50,118 bases of DNA from Flavobacteriia bacterium (GTDB lineage: Bacteria; Bacteroidota; Bacteroidia; Flavobacteriales; Schleiferiaceae): contig JABXHW010000065.1 of the NCBI GenBank assembly GCA_013373425.1, forward strand, positions 1 to 50,118. Direction: 5' to 3'. The notes beneath the pieces are model-generated. The model had not been told where the DNA came from. It did not search any database and worked only from the letters and a program-made list of their open reading frames with translations. The translations under genes were made by a program, and so were the position numbers. Shown piece after piece: positions 44,741 to 49,867 of the stretch; positions within the stretch are counted from its first letter, which is position 1, and each line of letters opens with the position of its first letter.

Positions 44741-45436
44741 ATGCGCAACATAACACACGTATTCTTCGACCTCGACCATACGCTTTGGGATTTTAAAATG
44801 AATAGCCGAGAAACTCTCGGCGAGTTGTTTCACGAAATGCGATTGGCCTCGCACGGCGTTCAAGATGTGGAAGCTTTTATTGAAAGCTATGAAAGGGTAA
44901 ACGACATCAAGTGGGCGCAGTACAGAAAGGGAGAAATTGATAAGCAAACCCTTCGGAACACTCGATTCCGCGATGCATTACGACACTTTGAAGTAGACCA
45001 TCCAGAGCTCGCTCACGAGATGGAGATTGCTTATATCGACCGATCACCGCACAAAACGAATCTCTTCCCTGGCGCTATTGAAACGCTGGGATACCTTCAA
45101 GAGAAGTACGCCCTTCACATCATCACCAACGGGTTCTCAGAGGTTCAAGATGTGAAGTTGAATAAATCGGGACTTAAACCTTTCTTCGAAACGGTCATCA
45201 CATCAGAACAAGTGGGTGTAAACAAGCCAGATCCGAAGATTTTCCTCCATGCGCTACAATCTACAGGTGCCAAGAGAAATCAATCGGTCATGGTGGGAGA
45301 CAACCTAGAGGCGGATGTAAGAGGGGCGAGAAGAGTAGGAATGCATGCAGTGTTTTTCAATCCTGAATCAGCTAGCCACAATGACAAAGTGAGTGCTGAA
45401 ATCTTCCAACTCGACCAGTTGAAAAAGCTACTTTGA
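44741..45436 (+). CDS. yjjG: YjjG-type HAD noncanonical pyrimidine nucleotidase
   Basis: 231 residues. HVFFDLDHTLWDF at the N-terminus holds the HAD nucleophile Asp and the second Asp; HIITNGFSEVQDVKLNKSGL is motif II (Thr/Ser), and KPDPKIF (Lys) with VMVGDNLEADVRGARRVGM (Asp pair) close the active site. The long cap segment (about 20-110) fits the YjjG family, which dephosphorylates dUMP, dTMP and non-canonical pyrimidine monophosphates. A GACCTTTG sequence just before the ATG is one base off a -7 box. Last gene before the 45.5-kb operon. Confidence 0.9.
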   Translation: MRNITHVFFDLDHTLWDFKMNSRETLGELFHEMRLASHGVQDVEAFIESYERVNDIKWAQYRKGEIDKQTLRNTRFRDALRHFEVDHPELAHEMEIAYIDRSPHKTNLFPGAIETLGYLQEKYALHIITNGFSEVQDVKLNKSGLKPFFETVITSEQVGVNKPDPKIFLHALQSTGAKRNQSVMVGDNLEADVRGARRVGMHAVFFNPESASHNDKVSAEIFQLDQLKKLL

Positions 45437-45465: not shown

Positions 45466-45489
45466 TAAATTCGTACATTGTACAATGTA
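45466..45489 (+). promoter_or_regulatory. Perfect 16-bp palindrome next to a -7-like box, upstream of the DUF1501 operon
   Basis: TAAATTCG (45466-45473, a TAnnTTCG variant of the -7 box) is followed directly by TACATTGTACAATGTA (45474-45489), a perfect palindrome with eight-base half-sites, placed where transcription would start. The first ATG of the operon follows 15 bases after it. A dimeric repressor bound here would block the promoter. No clear -33 TTG is present. Confidence 0.6.
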
Positions 45490-45504
45490 TGTTTAACTGA
45501 GAGT

Positions 45505-46371
45505 ATGCAGATTTTCAAAGCGTTAGGAGTATTCATTTTGATTGCCGTTACATTTTCATGTGAGCGGGATGTGATCAATATCGTTGATGGAAATCAACCT
45601 CCACCAGACTCAACAGTTTCCTATCAGCAAAGAGATAGATATATAGAGCGGGTGTACATCACTGTGCTGGGGAGAAAGCCCGACTCTGCCGAACACGCAA
45701 ATGCACGTTTAGTAATCGACCAAGATCCATGGGATCAGACAGTGCGCTACAATTGGCTTCAGACGACAATGCAGTCAAGAGATGTCTCAGTGAAGCGTTG
45801 GGACGATGTGCGTTCAGAATTGCTTGAAGGTGTTGACACAACAGCCGTGGGAATTCTTATTCAAAGTCTGGAAACCATATTGATGGGTTCTCCAGCTGAG
45901 CAGCGTCCCGCAATCCGAGCAGAAATCGATAAGCTTGAGCGCATCCTCTTTGCAACGGATAGTCTGCATCAAGGGGTTTACAGCGTTCGTGACTTGCATC
46001 TTCATGCCGTGAATAATGCTATTTACGACGATATCAACATGGGTGCTGAGAACTTTGTGGTTTCAGTGTTTGATCATTTCTTGTATCGCTACCCGACTCA
46101 ATTTGAACTCGACGCAGCCAAGCGGATGGTCGAGGGGTTTCAAGATGTACTCTTCCTTCAGAACGGTTCTACCAAAGACGATTTCCTCGGTATATTCTTC
46201 ACGTCAGATGCTTATGCCGAAGGGCAAATCAGATATGTCTATTTGAACTATCTATTTCGAGAACCTACAACTACGGAGTTACAGACTGAAAAAGCACGTT
46301 ATCAAATAGACTACGACTTTAAAGCGCTGCAATCGAGAATATTAACTTCCGACGAATACTTTACGATATGA
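45505..46371 (+). CDS. Lipoprotein with three DUF4214/DUF1553-like repeats (operon gene 1)
   Basis: 288 residues from ATG 45505. MQIFKALGVFILIAVTFSCE is a lipoprotein signal (Cys19). Three degenerate modules are visible: RVYITVLGRKPDSAEHANA at 49-67, FDHFLYRYPTQFELDAAKRMV with DFLGIFFTSDAYAE at 189-239, and VYLNYLFREPTTTELQTEKA with LQSRILTSDEYFTI at 245-288. The pattern (Y/F-x-x-L/F-x-R-x-P-x-x-x-E-L, then a helical spacer and L-T-S-D-E-Y) resembles DUF4214 and the C-terminal part of planctomycete DUF1553 proteins. The enzymatic role is unknown; a helical scaffold is plausible. The next gene overlaps by four bases. Confidence 0.75.
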   Translation: MQIFKALGVFILIAVTFSCERDVINIVDGNQPPPDSTVSYQQRDRYIERVYITVLGRKPDSAEHANARLVIDQDPWDQTVRYNWLQTTMQSRDVSVKRWDDVRSELLEGVDTTAVGILIQSLETILMGSPAEQRPAIRAEIDKLERILFATDSLHQGVYSVRDLHLHAVNNAIYDDINMGAENFVVSVFDHFLYRYPTQFELDAAKRMVEGFQDVLFLQNGSTKDDFLGIFFTSDAYAEGQIRYVYLNYLFREPTTTELQTEKARYQIDYDFKALQSRILTSDEYFTI

Positions 46372-46847
46372 GAAAATGGACGATTCTGTGCATAGTGCTC
46401 CTCGCGGTATCATGTAAAGATGTTGAGCTCAATCAATATGAAATTGAGCCGGTAAATGTGAATACGAGCTCGGCGGAAAAGACACAACGTAAGTCGGATT
46501 TGCAGCTCATCAGTATCATGTACAGCGATGTATATGGAAAGGCGATATCGCAGACCGAACTTCAGCGTTTGTCGGATGCTTACAACTCGTTCGGAGATAA
46601 GCAGGTAGTCATAGATAGAATTACATGGGGCTATCTCAATGATTCACGCGCCGATTTACCATTAGACAGTGAATTAATAGCGAATCCAGATGCGGTTATA
46701 CGAACACTTTACGAGCGGTATTTCTCCAGAGTTCCAGGAGAGATGGAGCTTTGGTATTACAAGGATTGGCTGATGGAAAACCCTGACTTAGGAGTGTTGC
46801 ACCTCGCTTTCGTTTTGCTCACCAGTGAGGAGTACAAATACTATTGA
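46368..46847 (+). CDS. Lipoprotein with two repeats like gene 1 (operon gene 2)
   Basis: 159 residues. MRKWTILCIVLLAVSCKDVE is a lipoprotein signal (Cys16). MYSDVYGKAISQTELQRLSDAY at 51-72 and LYERYFSRVPGEMELWYYKDWL with LAFVLLTSEEYKYY at 114-159 repeat the module of the preceding lipoprotein, so the two genes probably arose from a common ancestor. Both ends look complete. Its ATG overlaps the previous stop (ATGA), and the next ATG lies two bases after its stop. Function unknown; partner of the DUF1501 protein by context. Confidence 0.72.
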   Translation: MRKWTILCIVLLAVSCKDVELNQYEIEPVNVNTSSAEKTQRKSDLQLISIMYSDVYGKAISQTELQRLSDAYNSFGDKQVVIDRITWGYLNDSRADLPLDSELIANPDAVIRTLYERYFSRVPGEMELWYYKDWLMENPDLGVLHLAFVLLTSEEYKYY

Positions 46848-46849
46848 GA

Positions 46850-48151
46850 ATGAACAGAAGAGAATTTATTCGGAAGTCGGCGATAGGAAGTTTGGGCATC
46901 GCAGCCGCACCGTACATACTGCCCAGCGGTAGACTCTTCGCGGCCACAGGAGCGCGAAAAGTGAACCATGTCGTATTCTGTCTATTCGCAGGCGGGGTGA
47001 GAAATTGGGAATCCGTTCAAAAGGCCGAAGGCAACCTGATGCCGAATATTCTTTCAGGGAATGAGGCCATTTCGAATGACATAGCCGGTTCGATGTCGGG
47101 ATTGCCAAGTTCACCACTCAGTGCTCCAATGCAAACCATGGGGACTCTATTCAAGGAGTTTCGATTTTCATCAGGACCGACAGGTCACTACAACGGGCAT
47201 ACAACGGCAATTACAGGTCAGCACACAAACACCTCATTGAACTTACGAGCCAATCCTGAATGGCCAACCATCTTTGAACTTTACCGTAAGCACAATAGCC
47301 CATCTCAAGCTGCGACGAATGCATGGTGGGTTTCGCATTCGAATAACCTTTATCCGCTATTGAATTATAGTTCGCACCCAAGCTACGGTCCACAGTATGG
47401 CGCAAATCAGATTGCACCAACTCAGTTGTTCTCTGGAGCGGCTTTAAATGCATTGGGATCGAATTATGCTCTTGATCCAGACGTGGCAGAAGAACTCGAG
47501 CGCCTTCGTCACTTCACCGATGCTCAGTTCGATGTTTCTTTCAATGAGGCTGCTGGACTAGAGAATACCGTTGAGGGGAGAGATCAAATACAAGCCTTCA
47601 TCAACAAGATGGTTTCGGAGGCGAGCTCTGGACAGCACAACAATCCGTGGTCGATTCCAAGCGGAATGAATGGCGACATGTATAATATGTTCTACGCCGA
47701 GAAGGTAATTGAAGAGTTCAAGCCTGAACTCCTCGTTGTGAATATGTTTGGCGTTGATGTGGCCCACACTAATTTTACTGAGTATTGTAATAATCTTCGC
47801 AGAGCGGATTGGGCAGTAGCGCATTTGTGGAATACCATTCAGAATACACCTGGAATGGCGAATGATACGCTACTTATTGTAGCTCCTGAGATCGGACGGA
47901 ATGCAAACCCGAATACCATCTCAGATGCGAATGGCAGATTTGCCTTGGATCATACGACCAATGATGCCGTATCTCGCGAAATCTTTTGTTTGATGATGGG
48001 ACCATCCGGAGTGGTTCAAGCCGGACAGTCGATCAATCAAGTAGCTGGGGAGAGCATCGACATTGTTCCCACAATTGCAGATGCATTGGGCTTCTTGCCA
48101 GATACTAATGGAATTCTACCGGGTAGAGTTCTTCAAGAGGCCTACGTATGA
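46850..48151 (+). CDS. DUF1501 protein, Tat-exported, alkaline-phosphatase/sulfatase fold (operon gene 3)
   Basis: 433 residues from ATG 46850; a TTG at 46844 is a weaker alternative that overlaps the previous stop. NRREFIRKSAIGSLGIAAAPYI is a twin-arginine signal, so the protein is exported folded, probably with a cofactor or metal. HVVFCLFAGGVRNWE, then GHYNGHTTAITGQHTNTS, NMFGVDVAHTNFTEY, LIVAPEIGRNANP and ALDHTTNDAVSRE match the DUF1501 pattern (E-F/I-G-R followed by a D-H pair) in the alkaline-phosphatase superfamily. The substrate of DUF1501 proteins is not established. Its stop overlaps the start of gene 4 (ATGATGA). Confidence 0.88.
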   Translation: MNRREFIRKSAIGSLGIAAAPYILPSGRLFAATGARKVNHVVFCLFAGGVRNWESVQKAEGNLMPNILSGNEAISNDIAGSMSGLPSSPLSAPMQTMGTLFKEFRFSSGPTGHYNGHTTAITGQHTNTSLNLRANPEWPTIFELYRKHNSPSQAATNAWWVSHSNNLYPLLNYSSHPSYGPQYGANQIAPTQLFSGAALNALGSNYALDPDVAEELERLRHFTDAQFDVSFNEAAGLENTVEGRDQIQAFINKMVSEASSGQHNNPWSIPSGMNGDMYNMFYAEKVIEEFKPELLVVNMFGVDVAHTNFTEYCNNLRRADWAVAHLWNTIQNTPGMANDTLLIVAPEIGRNANPNTISDANGRFALDHTTNDAVSREIFCLMMGPSGVVQAGQSINQVAGESIDIVPTIADALGFLPDTNGILPGRVLQEAYV

Positions 48152-49035
48152 TGAAGCGAATCAGAGTTGCCCTTGTCTTGAGCCTGCCTTTTGTATTTGC
48201 AATGTGCAGTACAGAGCCTGATAATACCCCAAATCCATTCGGTGGAAACAATGGGGTTGTAACCATACCAGACACGGTAGACCCCACAACAATGGTCGGA
48301 CTACACAAGTACTTGTTCGCTGTAAAATGCGCCAATCCAACGTGTCATGATGGTTCGTTTGAACCAGATTTTCGAACGGCCGAATCAACGTATCAAACAT
48401 TGGTTTATCATCCTGTAACCAAGAACACCCCCGATGAGCGTTTCGATTTCAGAGTTCGCCCAAATAACCACGCCGAGTCGTGGCTGTACGAACGATTGAT
48501 TACTACGGATGATGTTATTGGTAGAATGCCGCTCTATGCACCAGCCCTGGCCGAGAAGGAGCTTGGATGGGTAAGGGATTGGATCAATAGCGGAGCTCCC
48601 GATCCAAATGGGAATCCGTCTGTTTATCCGAATCAATTGCCACAAGTGAATGGTTTTGGAATTTACGATTCACAAAATCAGCCTATTAGCACACGTTTGA
48701 ACGGTCAGGTTTCACCTTTAGCGCTTCCCAATAATGAAGCGGTAACATTGTATGTGCTGGTGGAAGACGACTCCACCGCTTTCGGAGATCTTCAGGTCAA
48801 TCAAGGGAAGTTCGCTTTGGATGAATATAACTTCTCACAAGCAGTAACGAAACAAGCTACGGCATTTGGAACGGTGGCCTATGGTATCAATTTCAACACT
48901 AATGAATTCACTCCTGGGGATACCGTCTATTTCAGGTACTATGTCAGAGATGATGAGGATCCGCGGATTGTTGAGTTTCCAAGTGACGAGTCTCCTTGGT
49001 ATTTTAGAATAATCGCTTCATTCGTCGTCCAATGA
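48148..49035 (+). CDS. Cytochrome-c-like lipoprotein with C-x4-C-H site (operon gene 4)
   Basis: 295 residues; the start is ATG 48148 or the next ATG at 48151. MMKRIRVALVLSLPFVFAMCSTE is a lipoprotein signal (Cys20). LFAVKCANPTCHDGSFEP at 57-74 carries Cys61, Cys66 and His67, a C-x4-C-H site instead of the usual C-x2-C-H. IGRMPLYAPALAEKELGWVRDWINSGAPD follows, with Met127 where the axial Met and the W-I-x-x-G-A end of PSCyt1/cytochrome c domains are found. The C-terminal half (about 170-295) is strand-rich and Ig-like. Covalent haem attachment is likely but unproven. Gene 5 overlaps its stop by four bases. Confidence 0.75.
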   Translation: MMKRIRVALVLSLPFVFAMCSTEPDNTPNPFGGNNGVVTIPDTVDPTTMVGLHKYLFAVKCANPTCHDGSFEPDFRTAESTYQTLVYHPVTKNTPDERFDFRVRPNNHAESWLYERLITTDDVIGRMPLYAPALAEKELGWVRDWINSGAPDPNGNPSVYPNQLPQVNGFGIYDSQNQPISTRLNGQVSPLALPNNEAVTLYVLVEDDSTAFGDLQVNQGKFALDEYNFSQAVTKQATAFGTVAYGINFNTNEFTPGDTVYFRYYVRDDEDPRIVEFPSDESPWYFRIIASFVVQ

Positions 49036-49466
49036 AAAAGCTATTTATCCTACTAGCCTTCTTCAGTTTGATTTCGTGCTCAGATGAAGTGCTACCCGAT
49101 GAAACACCCTCGCTTGAGCTTGTGAGTATTGGTCCGTCTCAAGTGGTTGAGTTAAAGGACAGCATCCACATTGTGGTACGCTACGAGGATGGGGATGGAG
49201 ATTTAGGAGAGAATTCTCCAGACGCAAAGAACCTTTATTTGTGGGATGAGCGCATCGACTTAGTGTATCAATACAGAATCAAAGAATTGGTTCCCAATGA
49301 AGCAGAGGTGGCCATCAGTGGAACGTTGGTTCTCGAGCTGCCGAATACGGTCATTACTAATGGCAGCAACTCGGAGCAAGTGACGTACACGCTATGGGTA
49401 AAAGACAGAGCCGGCCATGAAAGCAATCGCATCACAGCCGGCCCTATAACAGTTGTTTCTCCTTAA
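49032..49466 (+). CDS. Small Ig-like lipoprotein (operon gene 5)
   Basis: 144 residues. MKKLFILLAFFSLISCSDE is a lipoprotein signal with the acylated Cys at 16. The mature region is a beta-sandwich: LVSIGPSQVVELKDSIHIVVRYEDGDGDLGENSPDAKNLYLWDE, whose D-G-D-G-D-L-G segment is common in Bacteroidota Ig-like lipoproteins and may bind calcium, and VTYTLWVKDRAGHESNRITAGPI. It closes the five-gene unit, overlapping gene 4 (ATGA). The convergent DUF1761 gene ends two bases away, and no terminator was seen between them. Confidence 0.72.
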   Translation: MKKLFILLAFFSLISCSDEVLPDETPSLELVSIGPSQVVELKDSIHIVVRYEDGDGDLGENSPDAKNLYLWDERIDLVYQYRIKELVPNEAEVAISGTLVLELPNTVITNGSNSEQVTYTLWVKDRAGHESNRITAGPITVVSP

Positions 49467-49468
49467 GT

Positions 49469-49867
49469 CTATCGCATTACAGTAAGAATCACAGCGATGA
49501 TAACGATGCTTGCTGTTTGGTATCCACCATTAATTATGATGTAGGCAAATCCTTTACGCTCATACATCGCGTTTACACCCAATGCCATCGTCACGATTCC
49601 AAGTCCGATGTAAAGTGCATGTCGGATTGCGCTCGACATATCGGCATCTTCGTGAATAAAGTAGGACAGCATTAGTGCCATAATGAAGGTGAGAACGAAG
49701 GACGTTCCAAAGATTTTCGCCATCCCTGAAGTGTTGTTCATCTCTTCATCTGAAATACCTGCTGCTTTCTGCCAAGCCTTTCCGAACACCTTTGGATTGT
49801 ACCAAATGAAGCCCAAAACGAAGGTAGATACAGTGCCGAGTACAACGGCTAGCCAATCGATTTCCAT
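49469..49867 (-). CDS. DUF1761 family membrane protein
   Basis: 132 residues with four membrane helices: WLAVVLGTVSTFVLGFIWYN, FGTSFVLTFIMALMLSYFI, LYIGLGIVTMALGVNAMYE and GGYQTASIVIIAVILTV. LGFIWYNPKVFGKAWQKAAGISDEEM near 18-43 is the DUF1761 signature (G-x-x-W-Y-x-P-x-x-F-G-x-x-W). The role is unknown. A 251-base gene-free stretch rich in short repeats lies upstream, where its promoter must be. Confidence 0.88.
   Translation of the reverse strand: MEIDWLAVVLGTVSTFVLGFIWYNPKVFGKAWQKAAGISDEEMNNTSGMAKIFGTSFVLTFIMALMLSYFIHEDADMSSAIRHALYIGLGIVTMALGVNAMYERKGFAYIIINGGYQTASIVIIAVILTVMR

Follow-up and report, generated by a model that had tools for sequence, protein, structure and literature searches.

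A stretch of 50,118 nucleotides from a Flavobacteriia bacterium (contig JABXHW010000065.1; hereafter the window) carries a cassette of five co-directional genes on its forward strand (45505-49466), whose products are designated P1 to P5 in gene order. On balance, we lean toward the view that these proteins form one envelope complex, a split and lipid-anchored cousin of the module that combines PSCyt1-PSCyt2-PSD1 proteins with DUF1501. Within this view, the architecture of the cassette and its kinship with the PSCyt/DUF1501 module are highly probable, and it is fairly probable, judged from its residues, that P3 is a metal-bearing protein of a non-classical kind. No title or abstract describing this five-gene set was found in the open-licence literature.

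Recurrence and inheritance of the cassette

The gene calls agree with an initial annotation of the window, which had proposed a tight five-gene order with ATGA overlaps at three of the four junctions (P1/P2, P3/P4, and P4/P5) and lipoprotein or twin-arginine signals on all products; one twin-arginine translocation (Tat) signal (P3) and four lipoprotein signals (P1, P2, P4, and P5) were found. Its extent also stood, except for the start, placed at 45466; the likely start codon of P1 (ATG 45505) lies 39 nucleotides (nt) further on, and a TTG at 45478 is also in frame. P3 starts with an ATG 2 nt past the P2 stop codon, and TTG 46844 is an alternative start.

We then sampled the cassette through P3. 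A P3 query matched 12 of 60 relatives, 11 of them at full length, and a P3 profile matched 63 of 395 genomes of the order, 42 of which (44 places) were near full length. Against 395 genomes of the phylum, P3 matched 47, at full length in only two, the window's own genome and a genome of another order (G101), and a scan of named genomes gave five loci, all in Bacteroidota. The 50 full-length P3 places comprise the 44 from the order-wide profile search, G017, G101, and four loci from named metagenome-assembled genomes. From these, 46 neighborhoods were compared, 37 with wide or whole-contig context and nine as 4.3-kb loci with 1.5-kb flanks; the neighborhoods of G510, G535, G575, and G617 stood outside the 46, and L062, a duplicate of L043, was dropped. 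The order P1-P2-P3-P4-P5 on one strand was found in 46/46 neighborhoods. There are three minor exceptions: two genes separate P1 and P2 at L106, stops break P3 at L105 (G450), and a contig end cuts P1 at L103.

This recurrence therefore indicates that the cassette is not a chance arrangement. Since sampling ran through P3, it shows that P3 never occurs apart from the other four; P1 alone was tested in the other direction, and its profile matched two of 296 phylum genomes, both cassette-bearing (at most eight candidates were scored per genome). The initial annotation had named two findings that would speak against it, a gene order confined to one genome and a lack of recurrent association of P1, P2, P4, and P5 with DUF1501 genes; because the order recurs in 46/46 neighborhoods, neither holds. 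The window genome has the cassette in single copy, with one P3.

All five proteins split the 35 complete loci identically into clade I (19 loci, including the window) and clade II (16 loci), L103 and L105 being excluded from this split and from the distance correlation. The distance matrices among the five proteins correlate (r 0.84-0.95), which shared descent alone could suffice to explain. In each of two genomes, G046 (L049 and L052) and G468 (L092 and L106), a single clade I cassette accompanies a single clade II cassette, and the clades are thus distinct versions capable of coexistence. The flanking genes vary between lineages, apart from a sixth gene in clade II, which encodes a large secreted protein and begins -4 to +21 nt after P5 in 16/16 clade II loci. 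The N-terminal 450 residues of this protein retrieved each of the 16 loci at E ≤ 1e-62, and no sixth gene was found with this query in clade I loci, the window's included. Among three sixth proteins scanned, the CHU_C type IX secretion signal was present in three, CUB in two, and MAM in one, and the PKD matches were partly under the cut-off. At L108, the sixth gene is split over two frames.

In Phaeocystidibacter luteus (Flavobacteriales), a same-genus relative of the window genome, P3 is 86% identical to that of the window. In 14 of 15 comparisons, synonymous divergence (dS) had reached saturation, so the ratio of nonsynonymous to synonymous divergence (dN/dS) was not obtainable; differences at third positions (0.55-0.65) far exceeded those at second positions (0.08-0.26), which were lowest in P3.

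Active site of P3, its partners, and their export

The structure model of P3 (pLDDT 76.9) has an alkaline phosphatase fold, with 442 Foldseek matches in the PDB at E ≤ 0.001; the best structural match is PafA (Z 26.8, 306 residues aligned, 16% identity). The nearest sequences are single-gene, canonical members of the alkaline phosphatase superfamily (profile E 1e-31 over 270 columns). Alignment with ten of them places His113 of P3 at the position of the canonical catalytic Thr (10/10), which is His in 19 of 21 DUF1501 proteins (two gaps), and Glu347 at the Asp of the DHGR motif (10/10); His368 corresponds to the C-terminal metal-binding His. No N-terminal metal-binding Asp was found at positions 46-54 in any of 41 unique P3 sequences, and the pairing of this Asp with a Ser, Thr, or Cys nucleophile that marks a catalytic alkaline phosphatase is absent from all 41. 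Residues R51, E54, G112, H113, D303, H306, G349, R350, N351, D367, and H368 are invariant in these sequences, and position 348 varies (His in 25, Ile in 10, others in 6). Because the alignment with the ten canonical relatives shows these substitutions, P3 appears to keep the residues of one metal site, with the other rebuilt without a nucleophile.

The sets used for comparison (A6-A8) held 13 DUF1501, 8 PSD1, and 10 DUF1800 proteins. Invariant in the 13 DUF1501 proteins are H150, D334, H336, E377-R380, D396, and H397, along with R9, R10, and F12 of the twin-arginine signal. P3 has the corresponding His/DxH/ExGR/DH signature, with DxxH in place of DxH, and a twin-arginine N-terminus (RR within the first 40 residues in 41/41 unique homologs). 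In a tree of 66 proteins, which included 20 of the 41 P3 and 21 of the 23 DUF1501 sequences (L116 and L128 left out), P3 and DUF1501 were split from the canonical groups with support values of 100/97, and of 98/94 after the motif columns were removed. Shared descent of P3 and DUF1501 is likely on this sequence comparison, the alternative being independent loss at the same place. The earlier assignment of P3 to DUF1501 thus stood for the active-site signature and the tree, and did not stand for the nearest sequences or the Pfam match: Pfam DUF1501 (PF07394, gathering 27 bits) gave no match to the window P3 at E ≤ 10 and matched one of 17 P3 homologs (E 0.0032). Searched by sequence against solved structures, DUF1501, PSD1, and DUF1800 gave no outstanding match (best E 0.12).

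The first half of P4 resembles the PSCyt1 part of PSCyt/PSD1 proteins (probability 96.6%, E 6e-10, 138 columns). Without the signal part, the match remained at 95% and E 2.3e-8, and 0/40 column shuffles scored as high. The alignment runs from the heme motif through the xMP motif to the WIxxGA end. A CX4CH motif can hold heme in some cytochromes, and P4 is a probable c-type cytochrome, in which one heme c would be attached by this motif; the window genome has three Cytochrom_C_asm matches. P5 of the window had no Pfam or NCBIfam match at E ≤ 10. A P5-P4 profile score of 92.6% begins its alignment in the signal region, and we do not claim it as homology.

The P1 model is all-alpha (pLDDT 89.6), and Foldseek found nothing for it in the PDB at E ≤ 0.001. 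A VIA comparison of the model returned phycobilisome linkers as the first 33 of 50 rows, at Z 8.9-6.5, although for helical proteins Z < 13 may be chance; the best was the linker 3ohw (117 of 288 residues). By sequence, P1 matched the linker Glr2806 (E 3e-5) and P2 matched ApcE (E 9e-5). At E ≤ 0.01, Pfam DUF4214 was found in 9 of 17 P1 homologs (best 1.4e-7) and in 6 of 17 P2 homologs, and PBS_linker_poly in 4 of 17 P1 homologs (best 2.5e-7); the DUF4214 score of the window P1 (17.4 bits) is below gathering (23.2 bits). The P2 and P1 profiles match each other (E 2e-9) through a shared repeat, and both touch PSCyt2, the C-terminus of PSD1, and DUF1800 in the expected places (E 2e-4 to 6e-4). 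Scores for P1-PSCyt2, P1-DUF1800, P2-PSD1, and P4-PSCyt1 exceeded all 40 column shuffles and a reversed control, the probabilities against the helical parts of PSCyt2 and PSD1 being 51% and 31%; Pfam PSD1 also matched one of 17 P1 homologs (E 0.001). A P1 match to BamM (PDB 9n2d, E 0.008) was set aside. Low-scoring PDB matches, spectrin and protein A among them, were taken to be chance. We also observed that phycobilisome-linker-like domains occur here as lipoproteins (P1 and P2, 45505-46847) in a Flavobacteriales bacterium.

These results bear out the degenerate DUF4214-type repeats that the initial annotation had proposed for P1 and P2, which here show a weak PSCyt2/PSD1 likeness, and its PSCyt1-like site in P4. 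Because the gene order recurs, P1 and P2 carry DUF4214-type repeats, and P4 has a PSCyt1-like profile, its wording of a "split, lipid-anchored version" of the module is a fair description.

A lipobox-like site was found, by a loose pattern in unique homologs, in 36/42 P1, 46/46 P2, 33/46 P4, and 40/45 P5, and by a stricter pattern in 28/43, 40/46, 31/44, and 35/43, respectively; the misses stem partly from long open reading frame (ORF) starts and from the pattern itself. Acidic residues after the lipidated Cys are given as a hint of surface export in one report (PMC5080379). They occupy positions +2 to +6 in 127 of 134 scored P1, P2, P4, and P5 proteins, and in 125 of 158 background lipoprotein-like ORFs (cassette proteins included), so the hint is a weak one. 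The secreted partner of clade II also hints at a surface location.

Upstream of the cassette is a gene encoding a HAD-family hydrolase (44741-45436), and downstream, in convergent orientation, is a DUF1761 gene (49469-49867). A scan for sigma-70 promoters and terminators was not above shuffles (10 vs 7.7 and 2 vs 3.9). The longest perfect palindrome in the window, TACATTGTACAATGTA, is at 45474-45489, 15 nt upstream of the P1 start codon; no palindrome like it was found upstream of P1 in the 13 relatives compared.

Table 1. Genes and candidate functional sites of the cassette in the window, and loci with the sixth gene.
Feature	Position	Strand	Description
P1	45505..46371	+	288-aa helical lipoprotein, DUF4214/phycobilisome-linker-like, three R-x-P-x-x-x-E repeats
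P2	46368..46847	+	159-aa helical lipoprotein, two more P1-type repeats
P3	46850..48151	+	433-aa Tat-exported alkaline-phosphatase-fold protein, DUF1501-like active-site signature
P4	48148..49035	+	295-aa lipoprotein, PSCyt1-like cytochrome c domain, then a second, probably beta-rich, domain
P5	49032..49466	+	144-aa lipoprotein outside known families
P3 His113 codon	47186..47188	+	At the canonical catalytic Thr position; His in 41/41 unique P3
P3 Asp303-x-x-His306	47756..47767	+	Metal-site motif; 41/41 unique P3
P3 Glu347 in PExGRN	47888..47890	+	Glu in 40/41, Asp in 1/41
P3 Asp367-His368	47948..47953	+	Metal-site motif; 41/41 unique P3
P4 CANPTCH (CX4CH)	48328..48348	+	Heme-attachment-like; CX4CH in 44/46 unique P4, CX5CH in 1, pattern-negative in 1
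P4 Met127-Pro128	48526..48531	+	Candidate distal heme ligand (putative role); MP 40-75 residues after CH[DE]G in 46/46
Sixth gene (clade II)			L050-L053, L093, L094, L096-L099, L101, L102, L104, L106-L108

Proposed function and rival explanations

In the complex that we propose, P1 and P2 would serve as scaffolds at the outer membrane, docking P3 onto the lipoproteins P4 and P5. P3 would fold and load its metal in the cytoplasm and then leave by the Tat route. Tat export suits proteins loaded with a cofactor in the cytoplasm, and the window genome carries TatC genes. The metal center would consist of D303, H306, and H368 together with H113 and E347, the classical nucleophile being gone, and the heme c of P4 would give electrons to this center or take them from it. 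Such an exchange between P3 and P4 is a tentative suggestion from their conserved residues, and we hold it somewhat less probable than its absence. The complex would most likely carry out a reaction that needs both metal and heme, on an envelope substrate that is either small or polymeric, rather than ordinary hydrolysis of phosphate or sulfate esters. A still bolder generalization, which we regard as speculative and rather improbable, is that P3 and DUF1501 represent an alkaline phosphatase fold shifted from ester hydrolysis to metal-centered redox chemistry, whereby a metal-binding His took the place of the nucleophile, Glu entered the rebuilt second site, and the obligate neighbor, a PSCyt1-type cytochrome on phycobilisome-linker-like scaffolds, is the electron partner. 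If true, the redox reading would extend to many planctomycete PSCyt/DUF1501 modules.

Several observations weigh against the proposed kinship and complex. Pfam PSCyt1 (PF07635) matched 0 of 17 P4 proteins at E ≤ 0.01 and not the window P4 at E ≤ 10, and the motif of P4 is CX4CH, whereas the usual one is CX2CH. The profile probabilities of P1 and P2 against PSCyt2, PSD1, and DUF1800 are low (3-51%), with P2-DUF1800 the weakest. The P3-DUF1501 profile score of 97% is partly due to the Tat signal; without the signal, P3 matches the canonical group at E 4e-32 and DUF1501 only at 65% and E 6e-5, and a tree uniting P3 with the canonical single-gene proteins was not rejected in an approximately unbiased test (p-AU 0.33). 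Shared descent of P3 with DUF1501 is therefore no more than likely, because of this p-AU and because the canonical group is much nearer by profile. Finally, since the acidic residues hint at the surface and the Tat route at the periplasm, P3 and the lipoproteins may lie in different compartments.

A more conventional explanation is that P3 is a working phosphodiesterase, phosphatase, or sulfatase on an envelope or algal substrate, with P4 only tuning it or sensing redox state. The canonical nature of the nearest sequences and the closeness of the fold to PafA are consistent with this, as are the matches of Pfam Sulfatase and Phosphodiest to 3 of 17 P3 homologs each (best 3.6e-7 and 6.8e-6) and of NCBIfam PehA to 2 of 17. 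However, the nucleophile position is His and the N-terminal metal-binding Asp is missing in 41/41 P3 sequences, the DHGR Asp is replaced by Glu in 40/41, and the same residues are intact in 10/10 canonical relatives. We consider a working hydrolase unlikely; with His at the nucleophile position throughout, the "hydrolase" of the initial annotation is open to doubt. The opposite explanation, that P3 is a pseudoenzyme at the core of a surface complex, in a structural or ligand-binding role, with P1, P2, P4, and P5 as decoration, draws on the same loss of the nucleophile and one metal ligand. PbgA/YejM is a pseudoenzyme, and the YejM periplasmic domains (6vc7 and 6vat) are among the Foldseek matches of P3; no pseudoenzyme precedents were found in the open-licence literature. 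The large type IX-secreted protein that joins the operon in clade II would also suit a surface complex of this kind. Yet D303, H306, D367, and H368 do not vary across the 41 sequences, and position 347 departs from Glu in just one of them, which suggests a metal site under selection, and the heme-like motif of P4 is kept in 44/46 sequences; a pseudoenzyme seems, if anything, a shade less probable than a hydrolase.

Lastly, the five genes might simply be transcribed and inherited together yet have no function in common, and the correlated distances would be explicable in this way by shared descent. This is very improbable, given that the set is kept in all 46 neighborhoods while the flanks differ between lineages and that P1 was never found apart from the cassette in the genomes scored. 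The cassette also offers convenient material. Its five proteins are encoded separately and can be expressed, mutated, or deleted one at a time; this single-copy set of five genes lies in a genome that has no DUF1501, DUF1800, or PSD1, and a relative, P. luteus, is an isolate. With its altered active site, P3 lends itself to a clear-cut test of whether any hydrolysis persists in this branch of a large hydrolase fold.

Comparison with known systems

The single-gene Bacteroidota proteins nearest to P3 (L012, L015-L018, L021, L022, L026, L036, and L041) differ from it in having the canonical VIDGxR, TxTxxxH, DxxxH, DHGR, and HG motifs in 9-10 of 10, and none of the four partner genes was found beside them at the eight loci mapped. 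We know of no family name for them. The distant relatives of P3, about 300-380 aa long, were considered as DUF1501 proteins and ruled out; with canonical residues and as single genes, they form a separate group. Some of the single-gene relatives have a C-terminal extension like that of type IX secretion substrates. To the DUF4214/phycobilisome linker domain (PF13946 and PF00427), P1 is similar by Pfam and structural matches. Unlike phycobilisome linkers, P1 is lipid-anchored, its host is, by taxonomy, without phycobilisomes, and the structural match reaches at most Z 8.9 over 117 of 288 residues.

One report describes DUF1501-DUF1800 as an operon that is conserved and carries a Tat signal (PMC5122149). 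In the genomes searched, DUF1501 adjoined PSD1 for 12/12 genes and DUF1800 for 36/36 genes, judged by gene coordinates. The position of P1 and P2 ahead of P3 mirrors this order of a helical partner followed by a Tat protein of the alkaline phosphatase superfamily, and P1 has a weak likeness to DUF1800 (E 2e-4). Unlike the cassette, the DUF1800-DUF1501 pair has neither a cytochrome gene nor lipoproteins, and P1 is much shorter than DUF1800.

The closest parallel is the module of PSCyt1-PSCyt2-PSD1 (PF07635, PF07583, and PF07587) plus DUF1501 that occurs in Planctomycetes, Verrucomicrobia, and some Bacteroidota; no match to DUF1501, PSD1, or DUF1800 was found in the window genome. The cassette differs from this module in being divided over four or five proteins, of which four are lipoproteins, in having the Tat gene after the helical proteins and before the cytochrome, in its heme motif, in a P3 and P4 that the module's Pfam models leave unmatched, and in P5, which has no counterpart there. 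It shares with the module a cytochrome-like domain (P4), helical R-P-E repeats (P1 and P2), and a Tat protein with the His/DxH/ExGR/DH signature (P3), and in both, the parts adjoin on one strand.

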